64,000 nt of DNA from Nocardioides zeae (GTDB taxonomy: Bacteria > Actinomycetota > Actinomycetes > Propionibacteriales > Nocardioidaceae). The stretch is from NCBI RefSeq assembly GCF_030818655.1, contig NZ_JAUTAN010000001.1, positions 2,108,001 to 2,172,000 on the forward strand, in the 5' to 3' direction. This document shows positions 7,791 through 33,631 of the stretch, piece by piece. A program made the position numbers and the translations under genes. Position 1 is the first letter of the stretch. Each line of letters opens with the position of its first letter. A model generated the notes under the pieces. It saw only the letters and a program-made list of their open reading frames with translations, had not been told where the DNA came from and did no database searches.

Positions 7791-8468
7791 GTGACGCCCT
7801 CGGACCCCACCCCCGCACCGGCGCCGGTCTCGCCCCACGCCTTCACCGCCGACGAGCGTGCGGCGGTCTACCGCGTCATCGGCGAGCGGCGCGACATGCG
7901 CCGGTTCCTGCCCGGGGCGACGGTGCCCGCCGAGGTGCTCGCCCGCCTCCTGGCCGCCGCGCACGCCGGGCCGAGCGTCGGTCTCATGCAGCCGTGGCGC
8001 TTCGTGCGCATCACCTCGCCGGAGCTGCGGAGCGGCATCCACGCCCTCGTGGACGAGGAGCGCCGCGCCACCGCCGCGGCCCTGGACGAGCGCGCGGCGG
8101 AGTTCCTGCGGCTCAAGGTCGAGGGGATCCGGGAGTGCGCGGAGCTGCTCGTCGTGGCGCTGCGCGAGGGCCGCGAGCCGCACGTGTTCGGCCGGCGCAC
8201 CATGCCCCACATGGACCTCGCGTCGGTCTCCTGCGCGATCCAGAACCTGTGGCTCGCCGCCCGCGCCGAGGGTCTCGGCATGGGGTGGGTCTCGCTGTTC
8301 GAGCCCGATGCCCTGGCGGAGCTGGTCGGCATGCCCGCCGGGGCCGAGCCGGTGGCGGTGCTGTGCCTCGGTCCGGTGCCCGCGTTCCCCGACCGGCCGG
8401 CCCTCGAGCTCGACGGGTGGACCATCGCGCGACCGCTCGCCGACTTCGTCACCGAGGACGGTTGGTAA
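7791..8468 (+). CDS. bluB: 5,6-dimethylbenzimidazole synthase BluB
   Basis: Flavin-destructase that converts reduced FMN and oxygen to dimethylbenzimidazole, the lower ligand of cobalamin. 225 residues, normal for BluB. Nitroreductase fold with the diagnostic RRDMRRFLPG near residue 30, AAHAGPSVGLMQPWRF near 60, and MDLASVSCAIQNLWLAARAEG with GMGWVSLF near 150-170. The GTG at 7791 lies before a short low-complexity Pro/Ala lead (TPAPAPVSP); starting at AFTADERAAV would remove that lead but no start codon is there. It has no riboswitch of its own, although riboswitches lie on both sides. Gives the organism its own lower ligand, which fits a full aerobic pathway. Confidence 0.95.
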   Translation: MTPSDPTPAPAPVSPHAFTADERAAVYRVIGERRDMRRFLPGATVPAEVLARLLAAAHAGPSVGLMQPWRFVRITSPELRSGIHALVDEERRATAAALDERAAEFLRLKVEGIRECAELLVVALREGREPHVFGRRTMPHMDLASVSCAIQNLWLAARAEGLGMGWVSLFEPDALAELVGMPAGAEPVAVLCLGPVPAFPDRPALELDGWTIARPLADFVTEDGW

Positions 8469-8477
8469 GGTCACCGC

Positions 8478-8634
8478 CGCCAGTCGACCCCCGCGAGGGG
8501 GCAGGGAACCCGGTGGGAGTCCGGGACTGACGCGCAGCGGTGTGGGCGACGGGCGGGGCACGCAGCCACTGGAGGGTCCTCCGGGAAGGCGCTCCGCTCG
8601 GACGACCCCGAGTCCGAAGACCTGCTGGCACCGG
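8478..8634 (+). promoter_or_regulatory. Cobalamin riboswitch in the cobGH-cobIJ leader
   Basis: Plus strand: GGGAACCCGGTGGGAGTCCG, GGGACTGACGCGCAGCGGTG, CCACTGG, GGGAAGGCG and the 3' box AGTCCGAAGACCTGCTGGCA. It fills the 234-base gap between bluB and the cobG-cobH fusion and should repress the fused methylation genes when B12 is plentiful. Homology with the inverted copy at 7560-7710 begins at CGCCAGTCG and continues through the 3' box. Confidence 0.94.
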
Positions 8635-8702
8635 GCGGCAGCCGCCACCCGGTCGAGGACGACGGGCTTCGCGCACGGGCCCGCTGACCAGCGAGGACCC
8701 GC

Positions 8703-10268: not shown

Positions 10269-11815
10269 GCACCCCGGCCCCCACCTCCGGTCGCTTCTAC
10301 GGCGTCGGCGTCGGTCCCGGCGACCCCGAGCTCGTGACCCTCAAGGCCGCCCGGCTCATCGGCGCGGCCGACGTCGTCGCCTTCCACGCGGGCCGCGGCA
10401 AGCAGTCCAACGCGCGGCGCATCGCCGCGGGGCTGATCCCGCCGACCGCCGTCGAGGAGGAGCTCGTCTACCCGGTCACGACGGGCGGCACCGACCACCC
10501 GGGCGGGTACGCCGGGGCGATGGCCGACTTCTACCTGGAGTCAGCGGCGCGCCTGGCCGCCCACCTCGAGGCCGGTCGCGACGTCGTGCTGCTGGCCGAG
10601 GGCGACCCGATGTTCTACGGGTCGTACATGTACATGCACGACGCCCTGTCGGAGCGCTTCGAGACCGAGGTCGTCGCCGGCGTGCCGGCCTTCGCCGCCG
10701 CCACGGCCACGATCGCCTCGCCCCTGGTGCGGCAGACCGACGTGCTGACGATCCTCCCGGGCACGCTGCCCGAGACGGAGCTCGCGCGGCGCCTCGCCGA
10801 CACCGACGGGGCGATCATCATGAAGCTCGGTCGGCGGTTCCCGACCGTGCGGCGGGCACTGGCGACGGCGGGGCGGCTGGAGCACGCGGTCTACGTCGAG
10901 CGGGCCTCCATGGACACCGAGCGCCACCTCCGGGTCGCGGACGTCGACCCCGACAGCGTGCCGTACTTCTCGCTCATCGTCGTCGCGGGCGACTCCCTGC
11001 AGGGGGTCGGACGCCGGACGGGCGAGGCGGCGACGGCCTCGCCGTCGGCAGAGGCGGTCCCGGTGGACGCGCCCGCCGAGGTCGTCGTCGTCGGCCTCGG
11101 CCCCGGCCCCGCGCACTGGCTGACGCCCGAGGCCTCCGCCGTGCTCGCCGAAGTGGACCACGTGGTCGGGTACGCGCCGTACGTCAAGCGGGTCCCCCAC
11201 CGCGAGGGCCTCACCCGGCACGCGAGCGGCAACACCGTCGAGGTCGATCGCGGCCGCCTCGCGCTGGACCTGGCGCGCCGCGGCGAGCGCGTCGCCGTCG
11301 TCTCGGGCGGGGACGCCGGGGTCTTCGGCATGGCGACCGCCGTGCTCGAGGCGCAGGTCGCGGCGGCGGCCGAGGACGCGACGTACGCCGCGGTGCCCGT
11401 CCGCGTCGTCCCGGGGGTCTCGGCGGTGCAGGCCGTGGCGGCCCGCGCGGGGGCGCCGATCGGCGGCGACTTCGCCGTCGTCAGCCTGTCGGACCGGCTG
11501 AAGCCGTGGGAGGTGCTCGAGCGGCGGCTGCGCGCGGTCGCGGAGGCGGACCTGGTGCTCGGTATCTACAACCCGCGCTCGGCGAGCCGTCCCGACCAGC
11601 TGGGCGACGCGCTCAAGGTGCTGCTCGAGGTGCGCGACCCCGCCACGGTCGTGGTCGTCGGCCGCGACGTCGGCCGCGACGAGGAGGAGCTGCGCGTGAC
11701 GACGCTCGGCGAGCTCGACCCGACGACCGTCGACATGAAGTGCCTGCTCATCGTCGGGGCGACGTCGACCCGGGTCGACCACGGCCGCGTCTGGACGCCG
11801 CGGACGGTGGGCTGA
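10265..11815 (+). CDS. cobIJ: CobI-CobJ fusion: precorrin-2 C20- and precorrin-3B C17-methyltransferase
   Basis: Two SAM-dependent corrin methyltransferases in one chain of 516 residues, as in Mycobacterium tuberculosis CobIJ. Residues 1-245 are CobI: YGVGVGPGDPELVTLKAARL, AEGDPMFYGSYMYM and the GVPAFAAATA loop. A short acidic/Ala linker leads to CobJ from about residue 270: VVVVGLGPGPAHWLTPEA, VSGGDAGVFGMA, VPGVSAVQAVAARAGAPIGG and GIYNPRSASRP. CobJ performs the ring-contraction methylation after CobG oxidises precorrin-3A. The start overlaps the cobG-cobH stop as GTGA, so both are made from the riboswitch-controlled transcript. Confidence 0.96.
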   Translation: MSTPAPTSGRFYGVGVGPGDPELVTLKAARLIGAADVVAFHAGRGKQSNARRIAAGLIPPTAVEEELVYPVTTGGTDHPGGYAGAMADFYLESAARLAAHLEAGRDVVLLAEGDPMFYGSYMYMHDALSERFETEVVAGVPAFAAATATIASPLVRQTDVLTILPGTLPETELARRLADTDGAIIMKLGRRFPTVRRALATAGRLEHAVYVERASMDTERHLRVADVDPDSVPYFSLIVVAGDSLQGVGRRTGEAATASPSAEAVPVDAPAEVVVVGLGPGPAHWLTPEASAVLAEVDHVVGYAPYVKRVPHREGLTRHASGNTVEVDRGRLALDLARRGERVAVVSGGDAGVFGMATAVLEAQVAAAAEDATYAAVPVRVVPGVSAVQAVAARAGAPIGGDFAVVSLSDRLKPWEVLERRLRAVAEADLVLGIYNPRSASRPDQLGDALKVLLEVRDPATVVVVGRDVGRDEEELRVTTLGELDPTTVDMKCLLIVGATSTRVDHGRVWTPRTVG

Positions 11816-11827
11816 GCCGGTCCCGCC

Positions 11828-12127
11828 TCAGCGGATGCCCCACGACTCCTCGAACGTCGGGGCGTCGAGGTGGTGCAGGTGGTCGTGAACGTGCTGCAGC
11901 AGCCGCTCCGCCTCGGGGTCGGCGCCGGCGTCCATCCGCAGCGCCTCGCTGCCGTCGTCGCGCCGCCGGACCACGATGTCGCCGCGGCTCTGCAGGGGCG
12001 TCTCGCCGAGCAGGCCGCCGAGGACCGCGTAGAGGACGAAGCCCAGGCGGTAGCGCCACGAGCGGCGGACCGCGACGAGCTCGAGGGTGTAGACGTCAGC
12101 GGCCAGCACCGGCGTTCCCGAGGACAT
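11828..12127 (-). CDS. Conserved-looking hypothetical protein
   Basis: 99 residues, not recognised. It has one hydrophobic stretch (YRLGFVLYAVLGGLLGE, residues 26-42), then a charged C-terminus with a His-rich piece (LLQHVHDHLHHLD) and the end FEESWGIR. It begins with ATG at 12127 and its stop is 12 bases from the convergent cobIJ stop. Codon use matches the neighbours, and the low-GC-free third positions suggest it is real. No functional link to cobalamin can be read from it. Confidence 0.6.
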   Translation of the reverse strand: MSSGTPVLAADVYTLELVAVRRSWRYRLGFVLYAVLGGLLGETPLQSRGDIVVRRRDDGSEALRMDAGADPEAERLLQHVHDHLHHLDAPTFEESWGIR

Positions 12128-12157
12128 GGGCGGCAGCGTAGTGGGCGTGCCCGTCGC

Positions 12158-12592
12158 TCAGGCGTCTCGCGTCGGGTCGAGGACCGCAACGCCGAAGCGC
12201 GTGAACCCGCGGTCAGCCGTCACCATCGTCGCCCCCACCTCGAGGGCGATCGCGGCGAGATAGGCGTCGGGGACGTCGTTGCCACGGAGTCGGTGGGTCG
12301 AGACGAGGTCGGCGAAGATCGTCCAGTGCCGCGGACCGGGTCTCACGACGGACACCGCAGGTGAGCCGAGCAGCGCGTCGGCGAACTCGGTCGCGTGGGC
12401 GGGCGCGGACGGGGAGACGAAGACGCGGGGGTGGGTGACGACGCGGACCATCGACGCGAGGACCTGCTCGGCGACGCCGACTGCTTCGTGGCCACGGAGC
12501 GCGCCGTCCAGCCAGCGTCGCATGGCGCGGGCATGCGGGCTGTCGTCGTTGCGCTGGGCGCCGACGACGACGTTGACGTCAAGAAAGAGCAT
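12158..12592 (-). CDS. vapC: PIN-domain ribonuclease toxin, VapC-like
   Basis: 144 residues, typical for VapC. The PIN acidic residues are visible: MLFLDVNVVVGA at the N-terminus, RGNDVPDAYLAAIALE near residue 105 and MVTADRGFTRF near residue 125. Such toxins cleave tRNA or rRNA when freed from the antitoxin. Its start lies 14 bases inside the end of the antitoxin gene, the usual coupling for a toxin-antitoxin pair. It sits between two cobalamin operons with no other mobile signature. The RNA target is unknown. Confidence 0.88.
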   Translation of the reverse strand: MLFLDVNVVVGAQRNDDSPHARAMRRWLDGALRGHEAVGVAEQVLASMVRVVTHPRVFVSPSAPAHATEFADALLGSPAVSVVRPGPRHWTIFADLVSTHRLRGNDVPDAYLAAIALEVGATMVTADRGFTRFGVAVLDPTRDA

Positions 12593-12833
12593 GGCGGTCG
12601 TCGTCGTGGAGGAGCGTCGCCATGACCTCGCGGTCGTACAGGTCCACGCCCGGCTGCAGTCCTCCCACGTAGCCGAAGTCAGGCAGGACGGTGGTCTCCT
12701 GCGTGGCGCCGTCCTCGGAGAGGTGGCGACGCAGAGCCTCCTCGAGCACGGACCCGATCGTGCGGTGCGAGCGGGCCGCCAGCTCCTTCGCCCGACCCAG
12801 CAGCTCGGCGTCGATGTTCACTGTCGTGCGCAT
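12579..12833 (-). CDS. vapB: Ribbon-helix-helix antitoxin, VapB-like
   Basis: 84 residues from the ATG at 12833; in-frame ATGs at 12842, 12845 and an ATG-type start at 12857 are alternatives. The one at 12833 gives the usual antitoxin opening MRTTVNIDAELLGRAKELAA. That is a ribbon-helix-helix DNA-binding unit (residues 1-45, ending SVLEEALRRHL). The C-terminal 40 residues are acidic and should bind the PIN toxin encoded next. VapB/VapC complexes normally repress their own promoter, here upstream of 12860. The sequence around its start (catcataacatcac) is unusually AT-rich for this genome and may hold the promoter. Confidence 0.83.
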   Translation of the reverse strand: MRTTVNIDAELLGRAKELAARSHRTIGSVLEEALRRHLSEDGATQETTVLPDFGYVGGLQPGVDLYDREVMATLLHDDDRHALS

Positions 12834-12902
12834 GCTGCGCATCATAACATCACGCACCTGTCATCACAGTGCACACGTGCGGGCGCGACCACTGCATGAC
12901 AA

Positions 12903-12941
12903 CGCCCGCCCGCGCCACCGAGGGGGTGGCGGGGGCGGGCG
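12903..12941 (-). terminator. Strong GC hairpin after ohr
   Basis: A 17-base arm (12903-12919) pairs with 12925-12941 with one mismatch around a five-base loop. It lies just past the ohr stop on the ohr strand and before vapB. There is no long T tract, as is common in GC-rich actinobacteria, so it is an intrinsic-like terminator or a 3'-end stabiliser. Confidence 0.7.
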
Positions 12942-13004
12942 CTGGTGACGCTGGGTGACGGCAGACGCCGTCGGGCGTCGTCAGGCGTCGTGAGGCCGGG
13001 GAGG

Positions 13005-13436
13005 TCAGGCGACCTCGACCTCGGTGACGACGTCGACGTTGCCCTTGGTGGCGTGGGTGTAGGGGCAGATCGAGTGGCCGACCTCGACCGCCTTCTCCGC
13101 GTCCTCCTGCGAGACGCCGCCGCCGAACTCGGCGATGAGCTTCACCGCCAGGCCGAAGCCGTTGTCCTCGCGCGGGCCGATGCCGACCTCGGCGGTGATG
13201 GCGACGTCCTGGAGCTCGATGCCGTGCTGCTTGGCGCCGGCCTTGAGCGCGCCGAGGAAGCACGCGGCGTAGCCCGTCGCGAAGAGCTGCTCCGGGTTGG
13301 TGCCGCCGCCCGCGCCGCCCATCTCCTTGGGCACGACGAGCTCGACGTCGATCTGGCCGTCCGAGGTGCGCGCGTGACCGTTGCGGCCGTCGCCGGTGGC
13401 CGTGGCAGAGGCGGTGTACGCGATCGAGGTGGGCAT
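13005..13436 (-). CDS. ohr: Organic hydroperoxide resistance protein Ohr
   Basis: Thiol peroxidase that reduces organic and fatty-acid hydroperoxides in the cytosol using lipoylated proteins. 143 residues, normal for Ohr. Both catalytic cysteines are present in family context: peroxidatic in TGYAACFLGALKA near residue 60 and resolving in HSICPYTHATKGN near residue 125. These also separate it from OsmC. The AAGGAGA ribosome binding site lies seven bases before the ATG. Divergently transcribed from a TetR-family gene with a palindrome between them. Ohr is usually controlled by MarR-type OhrR, so TetR control here would be a variation and is inferred. Confidence 0.95.
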   Translation of the reverse strand: MPTSIAYTASATATGDGRNGHARTSDGQIDVELVVPKEMGGAGGGTNPEQLFATGYAACFLGALKAGAKQHGIELQDVAITAEVGIGPREDNGFGLAVKLIAEFGGGVSQEDAEKAVEVGHSICPYTHATKGNVDVVTEVEVA

Positions 13437-13457
13437 CGCGATCTCCTTCCGGGAGAG

Positions 13458-13479
13458 GTAGAGTGACTAGTACGTCTAC
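13458..13479. promoter_or_regulatory. Candidate TetR operator between ohr and tetR
   Basis: A 22-base palindrome of form GTAGA-N3-ACTAGT-N3-TCTAC, with 16 of 22 positions symmetrical. It lies in the 102-base divergent region, 22 bases before the ohr start and 60 before the tetR start. Size and symmetry suit a TetR-family dimer. It would block ohr transcription directly. Binding is inferred. Confidence 0.6.
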
Positions 13480-13538
13480 ATCAGGTTGACAGGTCCGGAC
13501 CCCGGACACAAGCCCCGGTTCCCGGAAGGACGACCGCC

Positions 13539-14141
13539 ATGACGGACACGGCGACGACGACGGCGCGACCGAGCGCCGTCCGGCGACGGATCCTCGACGC
13601 CGCGCGTCGCCGCTTCTACCGCGACGGCATCCGCACGGTGAGCGCCGACCGCCTCATCGCGGACGCCGAGGTCTCGAAGATGACGTTCTACCGGCACTTC
13701 CGCAGCAAGGACGACCTCGTCGTCGCCTACCTCAGCGAGGTCGTCGCGGAGGAGCGGGCGGCCCTGGCCGAGGCCCGCTGCGCCCACCCGGACGACCCGG
13801 CGGAGGTGCTGCGCACCTACGCCCGGCGGGTAGGGGCCCTGACCTGCACGGAGGGCTTCCGCGGGTGCGCGTTCCTCAACGCCGCGGCGGAGTACGCCGA
13901 CGCGACCCACCCGGTGCGCACGGTCGTCGCGACCCACCGCACGTGGCTGCGGGAGGAGCTGTCCCGCATCCTCGTCGACCTGGGCGTCACGCCCTCCCGG
14001 GTCGAGGAGGCCGCGGTGCAGCTGCAGATGCTCCGCGACGGCGCCATGGTGGCCGGCACGCTCGACACGGAGCCGGCGCGCGTCGCCCAGCGGCTCGTCG
14101 ACGCGGGCGAGTCCGTCCTGCGGGACGCGCTGCGGGACTGA
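13539..14141 (+). CDS. TetR-family transcriptional regulator
   Basis: 200 residues. The N-terminal helix-turn-helix is clear: RRRILDAARRRFYRDGIRTV at residues 14-33, then DAEVSKMTFYRHFRSKDDLV (the family's recognition helix). The rest is an all-helical ligand-binding domain with two cysteines (EARCAH, LTCTEGFRGCAFLN) near residues 73 and 105-112. These might sense oxidants, given the divergent ohr. An AAGGA ribosome binding site precedes the ATG. Likely represses itself and ohr through the palindrome at 13458-13479; inferred from arrangement only. Confidence 0.88.
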   Translation: MTDTATTTARPSAVRRRILDAARRRFYRDGIRTVSADRLIADAEVSKMTFYRHFRSKDDLVVAYLSEVVAEERAALAEARCAHPDDPAEVLRTYARRVGALTCTEGFRGCAFLNAAAEYADATHPVRTVVATHRTWLREELSRILVDLGVTPSRVEEAAVQLQMLRDGAMVAGTLDTEPARVAQRLVDAGESVLRDALRD

Positions 14142-14151
14142 CCGGGCCCGA

Positions 14152-14928
14152 CTACGCCCCCGGCCCCGTCCGCTTGAGCGACCGGTCGCGCCCGGCATCG
14201 TAGAGGTACGACTCCCCCGCGCCCGTCGCCGTCGGTCCCGCGAGGGCGCGGCCGACGAGGATCACGGCGGCCTGGCGCAGCCCCGCCGCCTCGACCGCGT
14301 CGGCGATGTCGCCGAGCGTGCCGGTGAGCACCTGCTCCCCCGGCTGCGAGGCGCGGTAGACCACCGCGACGGGGCAGTCCGCGCCGTACGACGCGCTCAG
14401 GTCCGCGGCGAGGGCGCGGGTGCGGGTCACCGCGAGGTGGAGCACGAGGGTGGCGCCGGTCGCGGCGAAGGCCTCCAGCCGTTCCCCCTCCGGCATGGCC
14501 GTCGAGCGCGCCTGGGTGCGGGTCAGCACGACGGACTGCGCGACGAGGGGCACCGTGAGCTCGCGGCCGACGCGGGCCGCGGCGGCGGCGTACGCCGGGA
14601 CCCCGGGCGTCACGTCCCAGGCCACGCCCGCCGCGTCGAGGCGGCGGGTCTGCTCGAAGAGCGCGGAGTAGAGCGACGGGTCACCGGAGGTCAGGCGCAC
14701 GACGTCGGCGCCGTCGCGGTCGGCGTCCACGAGGGCGGCGGTGATGGCGTCGAGGTCGAGGTCCTGGGTGTCGACGAGACGCGCCTCCGGCCGGCAGTGG
14801 CCGAGCACGGCGGTGTCGAGGTAGGTGCCCGGGTAGAGCACCACGTCGGCCGCCGCCAGCATCCGCACGGCACGGAGGGTGAGGAGGTCGGCAGCGCCGG
14901 GGCCGGCACCGACGAAGTGGACGGTCAC
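14152..14928 (-). CDS. cobM: Precorrin-4 C11-methyltransferase CobM
   Basis: SAM-dependent methylation of precorrin-4 at C11 to give precorrin-5. 258 residues, usual size. Family motifs: VHFVGAGPGAADLLTLRAVR at the N-terminus, DVVLYPGTYLD, RLTSGDPSLYSALFEQTRRL, the VTPGVPAYAAAAARVGREL loop and VVYRASQPGEQVLTGTLGDI. The GTG at 14926-14928 overlaps the cobL stop as GTGA, so the two are co-translated. Its stop is 10 bases from the convergent tetR stop. No riboswitch precedes this operon. Confidence 0.96.
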   Translation of the reverse strand: MTVHFVGAGPGAADLLTLRAVRMLAAADVVLYPGTYLDTAVLGHCRPEARLVDTQDLDLDAITAALVDADRDGADVVRLTSGDPSLYSALFEQTRRLDAAGVAWDVTPGVPAYAAAAARVGRELTVPLVAQSVVLTRTQARSTAMPEGERLEAFAATGATLVLHLAVTRTRALAADLSASYGADCPVAVVYRASQPGEQVLTGTLGDIADAVEAAGLRQAAVILVGRALAGPTATGAGESYLYDAGRDRSLKRTGPGA

Positions 14929-16157
14929 GAGGACTCCTTCTGCCAGGCCCACTGGGTGACGGCACGGGCGGGGGTGAAACCGCTGAACGAGCCGATGGGG
15001 GTGGCGGTCTCGACGCTGGTGCGGGTCAGCTCGCCCCCACGCTCGCCGTACCAGCGCGCGAGGAGCGCCTCCGTCTCCACGGTCACCCCGTGGACGACGA
15101 GGCGACCGCCCGGCCGCAGCGCGGACGCGCAGGCCTCGAGCACGCCGGGCCGGGTCGCACCGCCGCCGACGAAGACCGCGTCCGGGGCCGGCAGGCCGAC
15201 GAGCGCGTCGGGGGCACGACCGGTGACGACCTGGAGGTCCGGCACGCCGAGACGGCCGGCGTTGCGCCGCACGCGGCCGGCCCGGGTGGGGTCCGCCTCG
15301 ACGGCGACCGTGCGACAGGTGGCGTGGGCCCGCATCCACTCGATGCCGACGCTGCCAGCACCGGCGCCGACGTCCCAGAGCAGGCCCCCGGGCGCGGGCG
15401 CCAGGCGAGCGAGCGCCGCGGCCCGCAGGTCGCGCTTGGTGAGCTGGCCGTCGTGCTCGAACGCGTCGTCGGGCAGGCCCGCGGACCAGCTCACGACGGA
15501 GCCTGCCCCGTCGGGCCAGGCCTCGACGGCGACGATGGTGAGGGCCGGGAAGGCAGGCGGCTCGTCGGCCCACACTGCCGCCGTGCCCTCCAGCCGCGAC
15601 TCCTCGGCAGCCCCGAGGTCGCCCAGCACCGTCATCCGCGACGGGCCCCACCCGCCCATCGTCAGCAGCGCGGCGAGGTCGGCGGGCGTCGACGCGTCCG
15701 ACGACAGCACCACGACGCGACGTCCGGGGGCCAGCTCGCGCAGGACACGCCGTACGTCGCGGGCGACGGCACTCACGACCACCGTGCTCTCGGCGGCCCA
15801 GCCGAGCCGGGCGTGCGCGAGCGCGACCGAGGAGACGGCGGGCTCGACGCGGACGGCGTCGGCCCCGAGCAGGTCGACGAGCGTCGTACCGATCCCGGAG
15901 ACGAGCGGGTCGCCGGAGGCGAGCGCGACGACACGCCGTCCGGCGTGGTCCGCGAGGAGGTCCGGCAGCCCGGCACGCAGGGGGCGCGGCCAGGGCGTGC
16001 GGACCTGGGCGTCGACCGGTGGCACGAGCGCGAGGTGCCGCTCGCCGCCCAGCAGGACCTCCGCGGCGACGACGATCCGGCGCAGCCGCTCGGGCACCCC
16101 GGGCCAGCCGTCCGCCCCGATCCCGACGACGGTGACGACGGGGCGGGAGGCGTTCAC
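14925..16157 (-). CDS. cobL: Precorrin-6Y C5,15-methyltransferase (decarboxylating) CobL (CbiE-CbiT fusion)
   Basis: Methylates C5 and C15 and decarboxylates the acetate side chain to form precorrin-8X, the substrate of CobH. 410 residues with both halves. The CbiE half (residues 1-210) shows VVTVVGIGADGWPGVPERLR and VVALASGDPLVSGIGTTLV. The CbiT half (from about 235) shows DDAFEHDGQLTKRDLRAAAL, GGLLWDVGAGAGSVGIEWMR (SAM-binding glycine loop) and AVFVGGGATRPGVLE. First gene of the cobL-cobM operon, whose promoter must lie in the 75-base divergent gap to the condensing-enzyme gene. Confidence 0.96.
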   Translation of the reverse strand: MNASRPVVTVVGIGADGWPGVPERLRRIVVAAEVLLGGERHLALVPPVDAQVRTPWPRPLRAGLPDLLADHAGRRVVALASGDPLVSGIGTTLVDLLGADAVRVEPAVSSVALAHARLGWAAESTVVVSAVARDVRRVLRELAPGRRVVVLSSDASTPADLAALLTMGGWGPSRMTVLGDLGAAEESRLEGTAAVWADEPPAFPALTIVAVEAWPDGAGSVVSWSAGLPDDAFEHDGQLTKRDLRAAALARLAPAPGGLLWDVGAGAGSVGIEWMRAHATCRTVAVEADPTRAGRVRRNAGRLGVPDLQVVTGRAPDALVGLPAPDAVFVGGGATRPGVLEACASALRPGGRLVVHGVTVETEALLARWYGERGGELTRTSVETATPIGSFSGFTPARAVTQWAWQKESS

Positions 16158-16232: not shown

Positions 16233-17234
16233 GTGCCGGCTCTCGGACCACGCTCGCTCCGCATCCTGGGCACGGGCGCCGCGCTGCCGGCCGACGCGGT
16301 GACCAGCGCCCAGCTCGACGACCGCCTCGGCCTCGCGCCGGGCACGGTGGAGTCGACGACGGGCGTGCGGGTCCGGTACGTCGAGAAGGGCTCGGCCGCT
16401 GCCCTCGGCGCGCGCGCCGCCCGGCAGGCGCTGGCCGCCGCCGACCTGACGCTCGACGACGTCGACCTCGTGGTGGCGGCCAGCGGCACCCCCGACCAGC
16501 CGCTGCCCTACAACGCGGCGCTGCTCCACGAGGAGCTCGCCCCCGCACGGCCGCTCCCCTCCTTCGACGTCGGGGCCAGCTGCCTGAGCTTCCTGACGGC
16601 CGTCGACCTGGTCGCGACGCTCGTGGACGCCGGGCGCTACGAGCGCGTGCTCGTCGTCTCGAGCGACCTGGCCTCGGTCGGCCTCGACTTCAGCGACCTC
16701 GGCGCGTCGGGGATCTTCGGCGACGGCGCTGCGGCCGCCGTGCTCGGTCCGTCCGGCGACACCGGCTCGGCGGTGCTGGCCGCCGGGTTCGAGACCCACA
16801 GCTCGGGCGCGCACGCCTGCGAGATCAAGGGCGGCGGGTCCCGCTTCGCGCCCGACCGGGTGGCCGGCGAGGGCGACTACGCCGACTGGTGCCGCTTCCG
16901 CATGGACGGCGGCGCGGCGCTGCGCCTCGCCGTACGCCACCTGCCGCCGCTCGTCGAGCGGCTCACGGCCGCAGCCGGCGTGCCCGTCGCGGACACCGTC
17001 GTCGTGCCCCACCAGGCCAGCCACCTCGGCCTCGCGTGGCTGCGCCACGCCCTCGCGCTGGGCGACGACCAGCTGGTCGACGTCTACGCGGAGCACGGCA
17101 ACCAGGTCGGCGCCTCCCTGCCGTTCGCCCTGCACACCGCGGTCGCGACGGGGCGGCTGCAGCGGGGCGACCACGCGCTGCTGCTGGGCACGGGCGCCGG
17201 GATCAGCATGGGCGGCGTGCTGCTGTGCTACTGA
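16233..17234 (+). CDS. 3-oxoacyl-ACP synthase III-like condensing enzyme
   Basis: Thiolase-fold enzyme of 333 residues. The Cys-His-Asn triad of KAS III is visible: FDVGASCLSFLTAVDLV (Cys near residue 116), VVPHQASHLGLAWL (His near 258) and YAEHGNQVGASLPFAL (Asn near 289). LGTGAGISMGGVLL closes the fold. KAS III relatives join an acyl-CoA to malonyl-ACP, or two acyl chains (OleA). The substrate here is unknown. It is unlikely to be the housekeeping FabH, because no acyl carrier or other fab gene is nearby. It opens a seven-gene operon with a hydrolase, an adenylate-forming enzyme, a dehydrogenase and two glycosyltransferases. The GTG start is the first in frame. Confidence 0.88.
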   Translation: MPALGPRSLRILGTGAALPADAVTSAQLDDRLGLAPGTVESTTGVRVRYVEKGSAAALGARAARQALAAADLTLDDVDLVVAASGTPDQPLPYNAALLHEELAPARPLPSFDVGASCLSFLTAVDLVATLVDAGRYERVLVVSSDLASVGLDFSDLGASGIFGDGAAAAVLGPSGDTGSAVLAAGFETHSSGAHACEIKGGGSRFAPDRVAGEGDYADWCRFRMDGGAALRLAVRHLPPLVERLTAAAGVPVADTVVVPHQASHLGLAWLRHALALGDDQLVDVYAEHGNQVGASLPFALHTAVATGRLQRGDHALLLGTGAGISMGGVLLCY

Positions 17235-18118
17235 CGGACCTGCTCGCCGACCAGCCGCGGGTCGAGCTGCACCTCCTGCGCGTCGGGCACTGCCGCCAGC
17301 TCGACGCGCTCGCGCACCGTGACGGGCAGCGGCGGATGATCGAGTTCCCGTCCTACGCGGCACTGGTCCGGCACCCGGATCGACCCGAGCGCGGCTGGAC
17401 CCTCGTCGACACGGGCTACGCGTCGCACTTCCGCACCGCGACGGCGCGGCTCCCCGAGCGGCTGTACGGCGCGCTGCTGCCGGTCACGCTGCCGCCCGAG
17501 GAGGAGCTCCCCCGCCAGCTCGCCGCGCGCGGGATCGACCCCGGCGACGTCCGCCGGGTCGTGGTGACCCACTTCCACGGCGACCACGTCGCCGGGCTCC
17601 GCGACTACCCGGCCGCCCGCATCCACTGCGGGGCGGCGGGCTACCGGCAGGTGCGGTCGCTCTCGCGGTTGGCGGCGACGCGGCACGGCCTGCTGCCCGG
17701 GCTCCTGCCCGACGACGCGGACGACCGCGTCGTGACCGTCGAGTCGGCGACGCCGCTCGTGCTCGAGGGGGCCGCGACCCTGCGCGGCTGGGACCTCCTC
17801 GGTGACCGCAGCCTCGTCGCGGTCGACCTGCCCGGCCACATGCCGGGCCACGTCGGGGTGCTGCTGACGACCCAGGACGGCTCCCCGGTGCTGCTGGCGG
17901 GCGACGCCGCGTGGTCCATCCGTGCGGTGGTCGAGGACGTGCCGCCCTCCCGGCTCGCGGGCGCGGCGTTCGACGACTGGACCGCCGCCCTCGGCACCCT
18001 GGGCGACCTGCACCGCCTGCACCGCGCCCACGCCGACGCCGGGCTGCTGGTGCTCCCGGCGCACTGCGCGGACGGGTACGCCGCGTGGACGGCCCGCGTC
18101 GACCGGAGCGCCGGCTAG
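17225..18118 (+). CDS. Metallo-beta-lactamase-fold hydrolase
   Basis: 297 residues. Zinc ligands are clear: VVVTHFHGDHVAGLRDY (HxHxDH near residue 117), VDLPGHMPGHVGVLL (third His near 201) and VLLAGDAAWS (bridging Asp). The spacing is like N-acyl-homoserine lactonases and related esterases. It begins at GTG 17225, 10 bases inside the previous gene; a CTG at 17231 is a weaker alternative. In this operon it may hydrolyse a thioester, lactone or ester made by the condensing and adenylating enzymes; this is inferred from position. Quorum-quenching lactonase is possible from the fold, but the context argues for a biosynthetic role. Confidence 0.85.
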   Translation: MLLTDLLADQPRVELHLLRVGHCRQLDALAHRDGQRRMIEFPSYAALVRHPDRPERGWTLVDTGYASHFRTATARLPERLYGALLPVTLPPEEELPRQLAARGIDPGDVRRVVVTHFHGDHVAGLRDYPAARIHCGAAGYRQVRSLSRLAATRHGLLPGLLPDDADDRVVTVESATPLVLEGAATLRGWDLLGDRSLVAVDLPGHMPGHVGVLLTTQDGSPVLLAGDAAWSIRAVVEDVPPSRLAGAAFDDWTAALGTLGDLHRLHRAHADAGLLVLPAHCADGYAAWTARVDRSAG

Positions 18119-19414
18119 GTGGGCGCGTCGCCGACGACGCTCGCGGCCCTGGCGCGCGAGCGGTGGTGGCTGCCCCGTCACCACGACGCCGCCCGGGCCC
18201 GGGGCCTGGCGACCTTCCTGCGACGTGACCTGCCCCGGGCGTCGTTCTACCGGGCCTGGGCCGGTCGGCCCCTCGCCGAGCTGCCCGTCGTCACGAAGGC
18301 CGACGTGCTCGCCGACTTCGCGGCGTTCAACCGCCACGGGATCACCCTGGAGGCCGCGCTGGAGGTGGCCGAGGCCGCCGAGCGGTCGCGCGACTTCGCC
18401 CCGACCCTGCCGCACGACGTCACCGTGGGGCTGTCCTCGGGGACGTCGGGCACGCGGGGGGTCTTCCTCGTCTCCCCGGCCGAGCGGCAGCTGTGGGCGG
18501 GCATCCTCATGGGCCAGGTGCTCGCCCCGGCGTCGCTGCGCACGATCGCGCGTCGGCCGCTGCGGGTGGCGCTGTTCCTGCGGGCCGACTCGAACCTCTA
18601 CCAGACGCTCGCCAGCCGGCGGGTCCACTTCTCCTGGCACGACCTGCGGGCGCCCCTGGAGGAGCACCTGCCCGCCCTGGTCGGCGTCGACGTGCTCGTG
18701 GCGCCGGCCAGCGTGCTGCGGGCGATCGCCGAGCGGACGGGCCCGACCGAGGGCGTCGCCCCACTGCAGGTCGTCTCCGTCGCCGAGACGCTCGACCCGG
18801 AGGACGAGGCCGTCGTGCGCGCGACCTTCGGGCGGCCGGTCGAGCAGATCTACCAGGCCACCGAGGGCCTGCTGGCCACGAGCTGCCGCGCCGGTCGGCT
18901 CCACCTCAACGAGGGTCACGTGCACGTCGAGCCGGAATGGCTCGACCACCGGTTGTTCCACCCGATCGTCACCGACTTCACCCGCACGACGCAGCTCGTG
19001 GTGCGGCACCGGCTCGACGACGTGCTCGTCGCCGCGCCCGGGCCGTGCCCGTGCGGCCGTCCGGGACGGACGATCAGCGAGGTGCTCGGCCGGGCGGACG
19101 ACGTGCTGGTGCTGCGCGCGGCCGGGGACGACGGCGGGGCCGGGCCCCGCGCCGTACCGGTGTATCCCGACGTGCTGCGCCACGCGCTCGCCCTCGCCGG
19201 CGACCTCGGCGACCACCGGGTGGAGCAGCACGGACGGCAGTGGCGGGTGGCGCTGCGGCGACCGGAGCGGTTGCCGGCGGTGGTGGCCGAGGTGGGTCGG
19301 TTGGCGGAGCGGCTGGGGGGTCGGGTGCCGGAGGTCGTCGCGATGCCGTGGCCGGCCGAGGACCCGACGGCGAAGCGGCGACGGATCAGGCGCGTGAGCG
19401 AGGGAGACGGATGA
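18119..19414 (+). CDS. Adenylate-forming enzyme of the PaaK / F390-synthetase-related type
   Basis: 431 residues. ANL-superfamily phosphate-binding loop VGLSSGTSGTRGVFLV near residue 102, the A5-like IYQATEGLLATSC near 245, and a C-terminal CPCGRPGRTISEVLGRADD that is characteristic of the PaaK/coenzyme F390 synthetase branch. Such enzymes activate a carboxylate with ATP. The GTG start follows directly on the previous TAG, with no spacer. Likely supplies or modifies the acyl chain handled by the condensing enzyme; the substrate cannot be read. It is not a normal acyl-CoA synthetase because the long C-terminal lid is short. Confidence 0.82.
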   Translation: MGASPTTLAALARERWWLPRHHDAARARGLATFLRRDLPRASFYRAWAGRPLAELPVVTKADVLADFAAFNRHGITLEAALEVAEAAERSRDFAPTLPHDVTVGLSSGTSGTRGVFLVSPAERQLWAGILMGQVLAPASLRTIARRPLRVALFLRADSNLYQTLASRRVHFSWHDLRAPLEEHLPALVGVDVLVAPASVLRAIAERTGPTEGVAPLQVVSVAETLDPEDEAVVRATFGRPVEQIYQATEGLLATSCRAGRLHLNEGHVHVEPEWLDHRLFHPIVTDFTRTTQLVVRHRLDDVLVAAPGPCPCGRPGRTISEVLGRADDVLVLRAAGDDGGAGPRAVPVYPDVLRHALALAGDLGDHRVEQHGRQWRVALRRPERLPAVVAEVGRLAERLGGRVPEVVAMPWPAEDPTAKRRRIRRVSEGDG

Positions 19415-20391
19415 GGATCGTGGTGACGGGGGCCTCGGGCTTCGTCGGCGGACGGCTGGTCGAGCGGGCCCGCGCGGCGGGGCACGACGTGGTCGGGATC
19501 GGCCGACGCCGGCTCGACGCGGAGGGCTACCTGAGCGTCGACCTGGGACGCGCGCACGGCGAGGAGCCCCCGCCCCTCCCCTGGCGCCCGGAGGCCGTGG
19601 TCCACTGCGCGGCGCGGGCCACGCCGTACGCCCGACGGCGGGAGTTCGAGGCCGACAACATCACCGCGACCCGCACCGTCGTCGACTGGTGCGCCCGGCG
19701 TTGGGGGCGGCCGCGGCTGGTGCACGTGTCGTCGAGCTCGGTTCTCTACCGCGACGGCGACCAGCTCGACCTCACCGAGGACGCGCCCGTCGGGCCGCCG
19801 TTCGCCAACGACTACGCCCGCACCAAGGCGGTGTCGGAGGAGGTCGTGGCGGAGTACGAGGGGTCGTGGGTCGTCGCCCGCCCCCGTGCCGTGTTCGGAC
19901 CGGGCGACACGGTGCTGTTCCCCCGCATCCTGGCGGCGGCGAGGGCGGGGCGGCTGCCGCTGCTGACCGGCCGGGAGACGCCCGCGGTGGGCGACGTGGT
20001 CTACGTCGACAACCTCGCGGACTACCTCCTCGAGCTCGCCGAGCGCGACGACCTGGGCGGCGTCTACCACCTGACGAACGCCGAGCCGGTCGAGATGCAG
20101 GCCGTGCTCACCGAGGTCGTCGAGCGCCTCGGGCTGGAGCCACCGACCCGCCGCGTGAGCATCCGCTCCGCGATGCGCGCCGCCCGGGTGCTCGAGACGC
20201 TCTGGCGGGTGGCCCGGTTGCCCGGCGAGCCACCGATCACGCCGTACGGCGTCGGGGTGCTCACCTGGTCGAAGACGTTCGTGCCCGACAAGATGCTGCG
20301 CGACCTCGGCCCGCCGTCGGTGTCGGTGGCCGCGGGCATCGAGGAGTTCGTCGCGTGGCAGCGCGCGGAGTGGGAACGGGAGGGCGCGTGA
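19411..20391 (+). CDS. NAD(P)-dependent epimerase/dehydrogenase (extended SDR)
   Basis: 326 residues. Rossmann loop VTGASGFVGGRLVERA at the N-terminus, VHCAARATPYARR, SSSSVLYRDGD and the catalytic YARTK (Tyr and Lys near residues 137 and 141). RPRAVFGPGDTVLFPRIL and VVYVDNLADYLLELA are typical of the 3-beta-hydroxysteroid dehydrogenase/OleD side of the family rather than UDP-sugar epimerases. ATGA overlap with the previous gene. By position it could reduce a 2-alkyl-3-keto product of the condensing enzyme, or act on a sugar for the glycosyltransferases. Which of these is right is not decided by the sequence. Confidence 0.87.
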   Translation: MRIVVTGASGFVGGRLVERARAAGHDVVGIGRRRLDAEGYLSVDLGRAHGEEPPPLPWRPEAVVHCAARATPYARRREFEADNITATRTVVDWCARRWGRPRLVHVSSSSVLYRDGDQLDLTEDAPVGPPFANDYARTKAVSEEVVAEYEGSWVVARPRAVFGPGDTVLFPRILAAARAGRLPLLTGRETPAVGDVVYVDNLADYLLELAERDDLGGVYHLTNAEPVEMQAVLTEVVERLGLEPPTRRVSIRSAMRAARVLETLWRVARLPGEPPITPYGVGVLTWSKTFVPDKMLRDLGPPSVSVAAGIEEFVAWQRAEWEREGA

Positions 20392-21536
20392 GGGTCGGGA
20401 CCGCGGCGGCGATCGGCTACCTGGCCCTCCAGGGCGGCAAGGCCGCGTGGGCGCTGCGCACGGCGCGGGCCGTTCCGGGCCCGCGGACGCCCGCGCCGAC
20501 CGAGGCAGCCCGCGTCGTGGTGGCGCAGCCGATCCTCTCGGGCGACCCCGGGCTGGAGGACGCGCTGCGGGACAACCTGCTCGCGCTCGACGGCGTGCGG
20601 TTCGTGTGGCTGGTTGACGAGGACGACCCGGAGGGTCAGGCGGTCGCGGAGCGGCTGGCGGTGCAGGCGGCTCGGTCGGGTCCTGCGGGTGCACCGCGCA
20701 TCGACGTGGTCGTGTGCCCGGTCACGCCCGAGGGCACCAACCCCAAGCTCACCAAGCTGCAGGTGGCGCTCGACGGGTGCGCCGACGACGACGTGCTCCT
20801 CGCCCTCGACGACGACACCCGGCTGCCGGCCGCGAGCCTCGGGGCGCTCCTCGACGGACTGGAGCGGGCCACGATCGCGACGGGGCTGCCGGGCTACCTG
20901 CGGGGCGCGACGCCGTGGGCGGCGCTCGTCGACCAGTTCGTCGACGCCAACGCCGCGACGACCTACCTCACGCTGCCGCCCGTCACCATCAACGGGATGA
21001 CGTGGGCGATGCGCGCCGGCGAGCTGCGGTCGCTGGGTGGGTTCGCGCCCATCGCGCACGCGCTCACCGACGACCTGGCGCTGGCACGGCTGGTGCTGGG
21101 CAGCGGCGGCTCGATCTGCCAGACGGCGGCGCCGCAGTGGATCACCACCACGGTCGACGGTCCGCGCCACTACGTGGCGCTGATGCACCGGTGGATGCTC
21201 TTCGCCACGCTTCTGCTGCGTCGGCAGCCGCCGTCCACGGCCGCGGCGATCACGGTGCTCCACGGGCTGCACCCGACGCTGCTGGCGGTCGTCCTGGGCG
21301 ACGCGGTGCGGCGGCGCCGGCCGTCCGCGGCGCTCGCGGTGCTGTCGGTGCGGGGGCTGCTGCTGCGGCGTCTCCAGCGGCGCATCCACGGACGGGTGCT
21401 CCACCGACCGGTCGCGTCCGTCGTGGCCGAGCTCGTGCAGCCGCTGCACCTCGTGCACGGCGCCGTGCGACCGACGATCCGCTGGCGCACGCGCACCTAC
21501 CGGGTGCGTGCCGACGACGACTTCCGCGACGCATGA
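20388..21536 (+). CDS. GT2-family glycosyltransferase, ceramide-glucosyltransferase-like
   Basis: 382 residues. An N-terminal hydrophobic helix (AAIGYLALQGGKAAWAL) is followed by VVVAQPILSGDP, LVDEDDPEG, the nucleotide-sugar DDDTRLPA near residue 143, a TDDLALARLVL acid near 227 and HRWMLFATLLL near 266. The order of acids and the final RW resembles GT21 ceramide glucosyltransferases. The canonical Q/R of QxxRW is not obvious. Membrane-associated, acting on a lipid or other hydrophobic acceptor by inference. GTGA overlap with the gene before and ATGA with the one after. Confidence 0.83.
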   Translation: MRVGTAAAIGYLALQGGKAAWALRTARAVPGPRTPAPTEAARVVVAQPILSGDPGLEDALRDNLLALDGVRFVWLVDEDDPEGQAVAERLAVQAARSGPAGAPRIDVVVCPVTPEGTNPKLTKLQVALDGCADDDVLLALDDDTRLPAASLGALLDGLERATIATGLPGYLRGATPWAALVDQFVDANAATTYLTLPPVTINGMTWAMRAGELRSLGGFAPIAHALTDDLALARLVLGSGGSICQTAAPQWITTTVDGPRHYVALMHRWMLFATLLLRRQPPSTAAAITVLHGLHPTLLAVVLGDAVRRRRPSAALAVLSVRGLLLRRLQRRIHGRVLHRPVASVVAELVQPLHLVHGAVRPTIRWRTRTYRVRADDDFRDA

Positions 21537-22102
21537 GCGCCTCGCTGCAGGTGCTGTTCTGCACGGGGCAGAGCGACCCCCGCAGCTGCGCGCTGTCCCC
21601 GGAGCAGCAGGCGTTCCTCGACGCGCTCGACCTCCCGGACGGGGTGGCGGTGCCGATGAACTTCCCGTACGACGCGGGCCTGGCGCCGCACCGCGCCGTA
21701 CCGCTGTGGCTGGCGAGCCTGCGCCACCTGGTGCTGGCGGTGCGGATCCGGCTGCCGGGGTGGGCGTCGGCTCATCGGGCTCGGGTCGAGGCGCAGCTGC
21801 GACGGGCCGACCTGACGCTCGTGCTCGCGGGGAGCATCGGGCTCGACCTGCTGGGTCGGCTCGAGCTCCCCGCCGACGTGCTGGCGCGTGTCGTGGTCGT
21901 GGCCTACGGGCCCGTCGCCACGCGACCGCCGGCCTGCCGGACCGTGCGGGTGGCGAGCCGCCACGACTGGCTGGCCCGCTGGTGGGCCGCCGACGTGGAG
22001 GTGGAGGCGGGACACCTCGACTACCTCGCCGCGCCCGAGCTCCTGGCCGTGTGCCGGGAGGTGGTGGCGGGGCTGCTGCCGCGCTCGGGGGATGCGCGGT
22101 GA
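21533..22102 (+). CDS. Unrecognised protein of the condensing-enzyme/glycosyltransferase operon
   Basis: 189 residues, no family recognised. It reads as a soluble alpha/beta protein (LQVLFCTGQSDPRSCAL at the start, LTLVLAGSIGLDLLGRL and VVVVAYGPVA in the middle). The strand-loop pattern is like that of a small hydrolase or a glycosyltransferase half, but no catalytic motif can be named. ATGA overlap on the left and GTGA overlap with the GT1 gene on the right show it belongs to the operon. It may form a complex with the next glycosyltransferase; that is only a guess from coupling. Confidence 0.65.
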   Translation: MSASLQVLFCTGQSDPRSCALSPEQQAFLDALDLPDGVAVPMNFPYDAGLAPHRAVPLWLASLRHLVLAVRIRLPGWASAHRARVEAQLRRADLTLVLAGSIGLDLLGRLELPADVLARVVVVAYGPVATRPPACRTVRVASRHDWLARWWAADVEVEAGHLDYLAAPELLAVCREVVAGLLPRSGDAR

Positions 22103-23361
22103 GCGCCCGGGTCGACCTGGTCGTGCCCCCCATGGCCGGTCACCTCCACCCGGTGCTGGGGATCGCGGCGCGGCTCGTGCGGGAGCAGGACCTCGAGGTG
22201 CGGGTGCTGAGCACGGCGGCGGCGCTGCCGGCGATCGCGGGGACGGGAGCCGACGCGGTCGAGCTCCTGGCCGGCGCGGACGACGTGGTCGCGGAGGTGG
22301 TCGACCCGCCGTACCGCGTCGGGAGCAACCCCCGCCTCCTCGTGCGGCAGCTCCGGGCGACGGCCGCGCTGCAGGTGCGGCTCGCGGAGGAGCTGCGGGA
22401 GGCGTGGCGCGGCGAGCGTCCCGACCTCGTGCTCGCCGACTTCACGATGGCCGCGGTCGGGCCCACCGCCGACGCCGTCGGGATCCCCTGGTGGACGACG
22501 CACCCTTCCCCCTGCGCGATCGAGGCGCGGAGCGGCCCGCCGTCGTACGTCGGCGGGTGGCGCCCCGGGCGGGGACCCCTGGGGCGTGCGCGGGACGCGG
22601 CCGGCCGGCGGTTCGTGCGGGGCTTCAAGAGCGTGGCGCCGCGGCTCGCCGGGGCGCGGCTCGACGACGTCGGGCTGTCGTCGCTGTACCGCGTGGACGG
22701 GTCGGAGGCCATCTACTCCGCCGAGCGGGTGCTGGCACTGGTGCCGGGGGCGATCGAGTACCCGCGGGCGCTCCCGGCCGCGGTGCGGTACGTGGGGCCG
22801 GTGCTGTACACGCCCTCGCCCTCCCGTCGTCCTCTCGTGCTGCGCCCTGGGTGCCGGCACGTGCTCGTGACGGCCGGGACGCACGTGGCGTGGCACCGGG
22901 AGGCGCTGGTCGGGGCTGCTTCCCGGGCGGCGGCGGTGCTGGCCGCGCGGGATGTGGAGCTGCACCTGAGCCTGGGGCGGGCGGGGGCCTCACTGCCTGC
23001 GGGCGTGTCTGTTCCCGACGGTCTGGCCGTCCACGACGTCGTCGACTACACCCGCGACCTGGGGCGCTTCGACGCCGTCGTCCACCACGGCGGCTCCGGC
23101 GTCCTCGGCCACACGCTCGCCGCCGGCCTGCCGTCGGTCGTGTGGCCGGTCGACTACGACCAGCCCGACCACGCGGCGCGCCTGGTCGACGCGGGCGTGG
23201 CGGTGCGGCTGGAGCACCCGGAGCGGCTGGCGGAGGCGGTGGTGCGGGTGCTGGAGGACCCGTCGTGCCGCGACGCCGCGGGGGCGGTCGCTCGCACCAT
23301 CGCGGCCCGCCCCGCCCTCGAGACCATCACCGCCGCCGTACGCGCGCGGCTGGGGGTGTGA
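22099..23361 (+). CDS. GT1-family glycosyltransferase (UGT/macrolide-type)
   Basis: 420 residues, two Rossmann-like halves. N-terminal acceptor side: VVPPMAGHLHPVLGIAARL, as in EryCIII/GtfA-like enzymes. C-terminal donor site: VDYTRDLGRFDAVVHHGG, followed by SGVLGHTLAAGLPSVVWPVD and YDQPDHAARLVDAGV, the actinobacterial form of the UGT signature. Such enzymes put a nucleotide-activated sugar on a small molecule or lipid. It is the last gene of the operon; the 31-bp repeat array starts three bases after its stop. A glycosylated end product is therefore likely, with GT2 and GT1 adding one sugar each or in sequence. Confidence 0.87.
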   Translation: MSARVDLVVPPMAGHLHPVLGIAARLVREQDLEVRVLSTAAALPAIAGTGADAVELLAGADDVVAEVVDPPYRVGSNPRLLVRQLRATAALQVRLAEELREAWRGERPDLVLADFTMAAVGPTADAVGIPWWTTHPSPCAIEARSGPPSYVGGWRPGRGPLGRARDAAGRRFVRGFKSVAPRLAGARLDDVGLSSLYRVDGSEAIYSAERVLALVPGAIEYPRALPAAVRYVGPVLYTPSPSRRPLVLRPGCRHVLVTAGTHVAWHREALVGAASRAAAVLAARDVELHLSLGRAGASLPAGVSVPDGLAVHDVVDYTRDLGRFDAVVHHGGSGVLGHTLAAGLPSVVWPVDYDQPDHAARLVDAGVAVRLEHPERLAEAVVRVLEDPSCRDAAGAVARTIAARPALETITAAVRARLGV

Positions 23362-23363
23362 GC

Positions 23364-23519
23364 GCGTCGAGTTGGGTTGGACGGCGCGGCGTGGGCGTCG
23401 AGTTGGGTCGGACGGCGCGGCGTGGGCGTCGAGGTGGGTTGAACGGCGCGGCGGGGGGCGTCGAGGTGGGTTGAACGGCGCGGCGGGAGCGTCGAGTTGG
23501 GTTGTACGCCGTGGTGCGG
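23364..23519. repeat. 31-bp tandem repeat array (five units)
   Basis: Five contiguous units of about 31 bases at 23364, 23395, 23426, 23458 and 23489, the last diverged. Consensus GCGTCGAGKTGGGTYGRACG followed by GCGCGGCGKGG. There are no spacers, so it is not a CRISPR. The same unit occurs at 33481-33631 in both orientations. The rest of the 268-base gap (23520-23629) shows no gene; the promoter of the HNH gene should be there. Confidence 0.9.
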
Positions 23520-23629
23520 GCGGGGACTCGTCGCTGCGTACGTGACAACTCGACGACAGCCGGTGCCGGTCATCCACAGATCACCACCAAGAGGTGGTCA
23601 TCGCACACGTGTTCGACTAGAGTGGGGTC

Positions 23630-33540: not shown

Positions 33541-33631
33541 CCGCGACCGTTCGACCCAACTCGATGCGCACGCCGCGACCGTTCGACCCAACTCGATGCG
33601 CACGCCGCGCCCGTCCGACCCAACTCGACGC
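33481..33631. repeat. Second copy of the 31-bp repeat family: two direct and three inverted units
   Basis: Direct units at 33481-33510 and 33511-33540; inverted units at about 33541-33570, 33571-33602 and 33603-33631. The inner direct and inverted units can pair over 18 bases with one mismatch (33516-33533 with 33548-33565) around a 14-base loop. It lies between convergent cobD and cobK, so it may end both transcripts. Confidence 0.88.

Follow-up and report, generated by a model that had tools for sequence, protein, structure and literature searches.

Within a 64,000-nucleotide stretch of the Nocardioides zeae genome (contig NZ_JAUTAN010000001.1, positions 2,108,001 to 2,172,000; hereafter the window) lies a run of seven joined genes that represents the local version of an enzyme cassette found across bacterial phyla. 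The core of the cassette consists of a KAS III-fold ketosynthase (KAS), an OleD-like short-chain dehydrogenase/reductase (SDR), a metallo-beta-lactamase-fold hydrolase (MBL), and an F390 synthetase-related adenylate-forming enzyme (CoF). The catalytic residues of these enzymes are intact, and the core is combined with three exchangeable sets of tailoring genes—in the window, a set built around two glycosyltransferases, GT2 and GT1. We tentatively read the core as an ole- or mycolate-like pathway, in which two chains would be joined head to head and converted to a 3-hydroxy acid (possibly 2-alkyl-branched) that is activated by CoF and, here, glycosylated; we give this assignment of substrates and product slightly less than an even chance.

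The conserved core and its exchangeable modules

The core was delineated by searching for CoF alone, with one genome per species; 36 of the 37 loci found hold KAS, SDR, MBL, and CoF within 7.5 kb. These loci come from Actinomycetota, Acidobacteriota, Pseudomonadota, Bacillota, and Bacteroidota, along with one contig labelled Bdellovibrionota. The seven-gene order of the window is repeated in 10 of 10 other Nocardioides/Pimelobacter records (L005-L013, L019) and in one from the Acidobacteriota (L016); another record (L014) has the same genes minus only U6, the family-less protein of the set, and two Citrobacter records have the same genes plus an extra SDR. Such recurrence across records is not chance. 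An earlier note on this DNA, made from the sequence alone, had proposed comparing gene order across genomes and allowed that the homologues might prove scattered and never co-occur—the block conservation found here instead supports its view of one unit.

CoF genes above the curated cut-off of TIGR02304 are rare and patchy. They occur in 10 of 145 relatives, 7 of 398 Pseudomonadota, 6 of 299 Bacillota, 6 of 247 Bacteroidota, 2 of 149 Acidobacteriota, and 1 of 296 Actinomycetota, each count including one previously known carrier genome (for the Actinomycetota, the sole carrier). Beyond the known carriers, 24 of 27 over-cut-off places in these genome surveys hold all four genes, the exceptions being L075, L079, and L081; this count excludes the contig-end fragment G704, and nine of the places, of Nocardioides type, overlap partly with the genomes of the CoF search. 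Below the cut-off, all four genes were present at three of the six places examined. Plasmid matches were found in 26 records, and seven of the eight that were opened hold the four genes; in the eighth, the Pseudomonas amygdali megaplasmid pMPPla107, the F390 synthetase-related gene (L135 7836-9134) stands among hypothetical genes with the core absent. Three Bacteroidota loci (L079, L081, L083) show second, lone CoF-like genes that share a conserved neighbourhood of their own (c48-c57), with no KAS, SDR, or MBL.

The cluster is also an accessory locus of Escherichia coli. When L029, whose sequence is 81% cluster, was used as the query, 671 of 5426 complete genomes had a place that matched 80% or more of it. 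In strains RM14723 and R32_14_1F the cluster sits between narI and two tRNA-Tyr genes, the two copies being 91% identical; in K-12 MG1655 the cluster is absent and only ychS, rttR, and tpr are found at that site. In RefSeq the E. coli cluster genes have no more telling names than 'F390 synthetase-related', 'MBL fold', and '3-oxoacyl synthase III C-terminal domain-containing'. The plasmid record KE48 (L045; E. coli, 386 kb) carries the cluster plus narGHJI, purU, galU, and hns—either a piece of chromosome now on a plasmid or an assembly error.

Three tailoring sets accompany the core: SDR2-GT2-U6-GT1, as in the window; PAP2-fatty acid hydroxylase-desaturase, composed of the lipid enzyme families PAP2, FA_hydroxylase, and FA_desaturase; and ATP-grasp-GNAT-Rieske. 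Among 65 core loci (eight known repeats dropped, some close kin retained, and partial sets counted), 23 have the ATP-grasp set, 16 the glycosyltransferase set, 13 the desaturase set, one a mixture, one a lone GT1, and 11 none. The last class includes L062, which has a GT2 of its own; L085, of the Acidobacteriota, with a U6-like open reading frame (ORF) and, inside the cluster, an enoyl-CoA hydratase gene that fits coenzyme A (CoA)-thioester chemistry; and two loci with a sulfotransferase nearby. In these two, which are alphaproteobacterial plasmid clusters, a divergent TetR regulator and the sulfotransferase adjoin the core (L043 5479-6492; L138 3496-4542), possibly as a fourth tailoring type. 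A further candidate, c15, which overlaps the end of GT1 in Pimelobacter-type loci, was set aside as Pro/Glu-rich and without a Pfam match.

The phylogeny of CoF suggests how the sets have moved. Near-duplicate loci were left out of the CoF, KAS, and SDR trees and alignments, and the mixed locus L028 was labelled desaturase for the CoF tree. On the CoF tree Citrobacter, with the glycosyltransferase set, is sister to Escherichia, with the desaturase set (support 100/99), and the well-supported branches force at least three changes of the glycosyltransferase label and at least six of the desaturase label; the tailoring sets have thus been exchanged on a stable core.

The operon in the window

The seven genes (Table 1) lie in a 4.38-Mb genome assembled as one contig. 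Checking of the ORF positions and junctions bears out the earlier note's picture of a unit with overlapping or abutting codons: KAS and MBL overlap by 10 bases, MBL and CoF abut (TAG directly followed by GTG), and each of the remaining four pairs overlaps by 4 bases. Family profiles likewise agree with the families it had assigned (KAS III, MBL, F390/PaaK-type ligase, extended SDR, GT2, unknown, GT1), and profile scans found no acyl carrier or exporter, as it had said, nor any polyketide synthase (PKS) among the seven joined genes. Its account needs correcting in one respect: the operon is no separate seven-gene pathway but the four-enzyme core joined to an exchangeable set of sugar genes. The SDR of the window is part of that set, and this operon has no core SDR.

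Table 1. Genes of the operon in the window, and the cluster on two E. coli chromosomes (positions in the named locus records)
Feature	Assignment	Position	Strand	Residues and other features
KAS	KAS III-fold ketosynthase, CorB/MxnB-like clade	16233-17234	+	Cys117-His260-Asn290; Leu91 at OleA catalytic Glu position
MBL	metallo-beta-lactamase-fold hydrolase, lactonase-like	17225-18118	+	HxHxDH (116-121), His205, Asp227, His280
CoF	F390 synthetase-related (PaaK-type) adenylate-forming enzyme	18119-19414	+	TIGR02304; Lys419
SDR2	extended SDR of module type, OleD-like	19411-20391	+	TGASGFVG, Y135xxxK
GT2	GT21-type (ceramide-glucosyltransferase/HpnI-like) glycosyltransferase	20388-21536	+	DDD 141-143; one hydrophobic segment
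U6	family-less 189-aa protein	21533-22102	+	invariant Ser101, Asp145, His161
GT1	GT-B glycosyltransferase, GT28/EryCIII-type	22099-23361	+	solved matches Kcn28, sterol 3-beta-glucosyltransferases, antibiotic glycosyltransferases
E. coli cluster, L042	chromosome opened	9090-15971		
E. coli cluster, L134	chromosome opened	7825-14710		

The GC content at third codon positions is 0.94-0.98 across all seven genes. A compositional gene caller recovers all seven, placing the KAS start 66 bases further downstream, and GGAGG is found upstream of the GTG start codon at 16233. Relative to another Nocardioides zeae record (L005), the proteins are 85-96% identical gene by gene. A scan for promoters and terminators found none.

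GT1 has Kcn28 as its top solved-structure match, followed by sterol 3-beta-glucosyltransferases; together with the GT21 type of GT2, this suggests lipid acceptors. U6 has no family in Pfam or NCBIfam, and a Pfam scan of all 14 U6 members was likewise empty. Its Ser101, Asp145, and His161 are invariant in 14 homologue rows, and we infer that U6 may be a small alpha/beta-hydrolase-like esterase or acyltransferase. There are eight strong U6 matches among 137 relatives and two matches among 139 Acidobacteriota, every one in a genome with CoF over the cut-off; because the U6 model includes several of these same sequences, the result that carries weight is the lack of a strong match in any CoF-less genome. 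The genome of L063 (G086), a locus that carries U6, is not among the listed matches; G129 carries CoF with a different module (L062); and G057 gave a single faint match (E 7e-4). Citrobacter U6, searched in plasmids, gave no match.

The flanks look unrelated when translations are judged by eye, with cobalamin-type genes on the opposite strand upstream and a 13E12/HNH-type ORF downstream. Two bases past the GT1 stop begins a GC-rich tandem repeat with a 31-bp unit (5.1 copies, 23364-23522); the unit recurs at 33483-33535 on the plus strand and, weakly, at 33608-33629 on the minus strand, and exact matches are absent from the 141 loci compared. In a Pimelobacter locus (L006 7228-8118), a patatin-like phospholipase gene that is absent from the window stops 43 bases before the KAS start as called.

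Condensation chemistry and its alternatives

Under the ole- or mycolate-like reading, KAS would perform a Claisen condensation of two acyl chains bound to CoA or acyl carrier protein (ACP), or of an acyl and a beta-ketoacyl chain, in the manner of CorB, MxnB, and OleA minus the OleA Glu base. MBL would hydrolyse the resulting beta-keto thioester, and an OleD-like SDR would turn the 3-keto acid into a 3-hydroxy acid, probably 2-alkyl-branched; because the core SDR is absent from the window operon, the module SDR must serve as the reductase there. CoF would then adenylate the acid to give an activated ester, as a CoA thioester or through direct acyl transfer. Finally, GT2 and GT1 might attach sugars to a lipid hydroxyl while U6 trims or transfers an acyl group, yielding a glycosylated 3-hydroxy lipid of mycolate-like or lipstatin-like character; the earlier note had inferred a glycosylated acyl or beta-hydroxy-acid product. 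Bacteria carrying the other modules would take a similar acid and either desaturate and hydroxylate it or link it as an amide and oxidise it.

The window KAS matches the KAS III families PF08541 and PF08545, and its best solved-structure matches are CorB (203 bits) and MxnB (199), followed by FabHs at no more than 141 bits. On the tree, cluster KAS and CorB/MxnB group together with support 99/93, apart from 19 FabH and 3 OleA rows (a further OleA row, from L099, was dropped from the comparison as misaligned). The earlier note had named tight grouping with housekeeping FabH as the result that would undo its proposal; tree, scores, and residue columns all show otherwise. The window KAS scores 178.9 bits on the FabH model TIGR00747 against a cut-off of 292.1, while the same genome's own FabH scores 379.8; each of the 15 cluster genomes checked encodes a FabH of its own above the cut-off, the cluster KAS reaching only 152-246 bits. 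Five residues past the catalytic His, at what we take to be an ACP-docking residue, Arg is found in 16 of 16 FabH and in 0 of 60 cluster KAS (one has a gap); Ser263 is present in 60 of 60 cluster KAS, where 16 of 16 FabH have Asn. Nor is the enzyme an OleA, as it lies outside the OleA clade and the position of the OleA Glu (E117) is L, I, or M in 60 of 60 cluster KAS, E in 3 of 3 OleA controls, and V in CorB/MxnB. Kresovic et al. (PMC4578411) give E117/E105 as the catalytic base of OleA/PpyS and report V94 in MxnB/CorB; in PMC7064751, E117-Pro is present in all but two of the OleA proteins aligned.

The strongest alternative, which we nevertheless consider unlikely, is that KAS is a specialised FabH that adds a malonyl unit to one acyl-CoA; SDR would reduce the product, MBL release it, and CoF reactivate a straight-chain 3-hydroxy acid for the glycosyltransferases. 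The Cys-His-Asn triad is indeed kept in 60 of 60 cluster KAS as in FabH, with no Glu base, yet the missing Arg column, the separate FabH of each genome, and the shared clade with CorB/MxnB all speak against this, as does the name of OleD in the known pathway, 2-alkyl-3-oxoalkanoate reductase. A name on the side of this alternative comes from the NCBI equivalog PRK07204 (NF005541), which calls the Paenibacillus cluster KAS (L044 5782-6783) a 'beta-ketoacyl-ACP synthase III' at 424.9 bits against a cut-off of 402, a label that is probably misleading for some members. Kresovic et al. also put MxnB/CorB within the FabH clade, which favours the single-chain route and weighs against a wholly separate KAS clade.

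The reductases fit the two-chain reading. Four of four cluster SDRs scanned rank two OleD models top, at up to 241 bits, and the window SDR (Epimerase-type) has OleD as its best NCBIfam match (152.1 bits). On the SDR tree—in which an OleD row from L099 was kept at 400 bits, below the cut-off—OleD falls with the core SDRs and is drawn inside them; a single branch separates the core SDRs from all other rows in just 6% of bootstrap trees. Of the two Citrobacter SDRs, one groups with the glycosyltransferase-module SDRs (100/100), and its partner joins OleD and the core SDRs.

The hydrolase and ligase bear on a second alternative. MBL matches Lactamase_B, with lactonases as its best profiles and most of its solved-structure matches, and its metal ligands are invariant in 57 of 57 aligned homologues; as a named acyl-homoserine lactone (AHL) lactonase it was rejected, with scores below the curated cut-offs (AttM 64.9 against 390; AiiA 48.0 against 375). 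CoF scores 306.6 bits on TIGR02304 (cut-off 251.9), has no match in a Pfam scan and one weak solved-structure match, phenylacetate-CoA ligase 4r1l, and its Lys419 is invariant in 60 of 60 homologues. Lactonase-like sequence, an OleD-like SDR, and an enzyme set that parallels oleA, oleD, and oleC would suit a pathway in which CoF functionally replaces OleC and closes the 3-hydroxy acid to a beta-lactone, MBL acting as beta-lactone hydrolase or in self-protection. We regard this as improbable: CoF is of PaaK/F390 type and not OleC, and a biosynthetic step fits MBL better than protection, since MBL belongs to the four-enzyme core and is fused to SDR in one case (a 614-residue protein in L062). 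Least probable of all is a signal or pyrone route, in which KAS would fuse two beta-ketoacyl chains, in the way of MxnB, to an alpha-pyrone-like compound that the other enzymes modify or inactivate (MBL as lactonase, sugars as caps); the CorB/MxnB clade, the resemblance of MBL to AHL lactonases, and the patchy distribution are compatible with it, but a pyrone needs no conserved reductase or adenylating enzyme, and partners such as PAP2, a fatty acid hydroxylase, and a desaturase suggest a membrane lipid.

Several points nevertheless count against the two-chain, ole- or mycolate-like reading. To our knowledge, no product, substrate, or activity is known for any cluster member. CorB and MxnB serve PKS/ACP assembly lines, which are absent here; they sit on a long stem (0.94), support for placing them inside the clade is weak (89/90), and the tree sampled few KAS III sub-families, to which the placement by Kresovic et al. 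may be added. The window SDR, at its OleD score, is well under the OleD equivalog cut-off (NF042422, 580 bits); the nesting of OleD, seen in most bootstrap trees, is not forced by well-supported branches, and the tree has a midpoint root; and the Nocardioides version, window included, has the module SDR only. The thioesterase role of MBL is a guess for a lactonase-like sequence, and the CoF product may be a thioester, an ester, a beta-lactone, or an AMP adduct. The exceptional locus of the CoF search, L022, lacks KAS within 7.5 kb, some CoF genes stand alone (L075, L079, L081, L135), and the ATP-grasp/GNAT/Rieske set by itself does not point to lipids.

Relation to known systems

An open-access literature search, with subscription papers outside its scope, returned nothing describing the cassette among the matches listed, and the pathway is apparently undescribed although widespread. 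The nearest mentions in print, in the parts of the sources available, are of a bare 'F390 synthetase': in a tabulated gene comparison of P. aeruginosa ATCC 27853 and PAO1, in a P. syringae pv. actinidiae transposon-screen table, and in a discussion of FASII (type II fatty acid synthesis) gene clusters for ladderane-like lipids. It is plausible, at a little under our confidence in the pathway itself, that the cassette was put together independently as a counterpart to the ole and mycolate systems—a mobile, modular chassis for head-to-head hydroxy lipids in at least five phyla and about one-eighth of complete E. coli genomes, with the lipid class set by the module. If so, common bacteria make a class of branched hydroxy lipids that has so far escaped notice, ole-like chemistry has been built with different activating enzymes, and CorB and MxnB gain an evolutionary home.

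The mycolic acid route (Pks13, FadD32, CmrA, Ag85) condenses two chains, reduces the 3-keto group, adenylates, and attaches the product to a sugar; the likeness to the cassette is one of logic only. For the window GT2, the nearest relatives are HpnI and the GT21 ceramide glucosyltransferases: it is GT21-type (PF13506) and HpnI is its sole NCBIfam match, but at 51.6 bits against a cut-off of 310 it was rejected as HpnI, and the ceramide-glucosyltransferase match is faint (E 0.02). CorB and MxnB, of corallopyronin and myxopyronin synthesis, share with the cluster KAS a clade, the same triad, and a hydrophobic residue at the OleA Glu position; theirs, however, are PKS assembly lines with carrier proteins, whereas here no PKS/ACP gene is present and a reductase and ligase follow. 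The available part of PMC12304814 calls head-to-head polyketide fusions rare and names CorB/MxnB.

Another close parallel is OleABCD, or oleACD, in which a ketosynthase, an OleD-type reductase, an adenylating enzyme, and a hydrolase are likewise clustered, with head-to-head condensation followed by 3-keto reduction as the likely shared steps. The logic of OleA, OleC, and OleD is set out in PMC7064751, which also reports a cluster where a glycosyltransferase and a P450 accompany oleACD. The earlier note's comparison with OleABCD was largely right—the SDRs rank OleD models top, OleD lies with the core SDRs, and KAS lies with the chain-joining CorB/MxnB—and it was correct that hydrolase and ligase are not OleB and OleC kin. 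Plain OleABCD membership was rejected, as homologues of OleB and OleC are replaced by the MBL-fold hydrolase and the TIGR02304 ligase; KAS also lacks the OleA Glu, and the tailoring genes differ. The chemistry is likely ole-like, though two core enzymes, the hydrolase and the ligase, have no kin among the Ole proteins.

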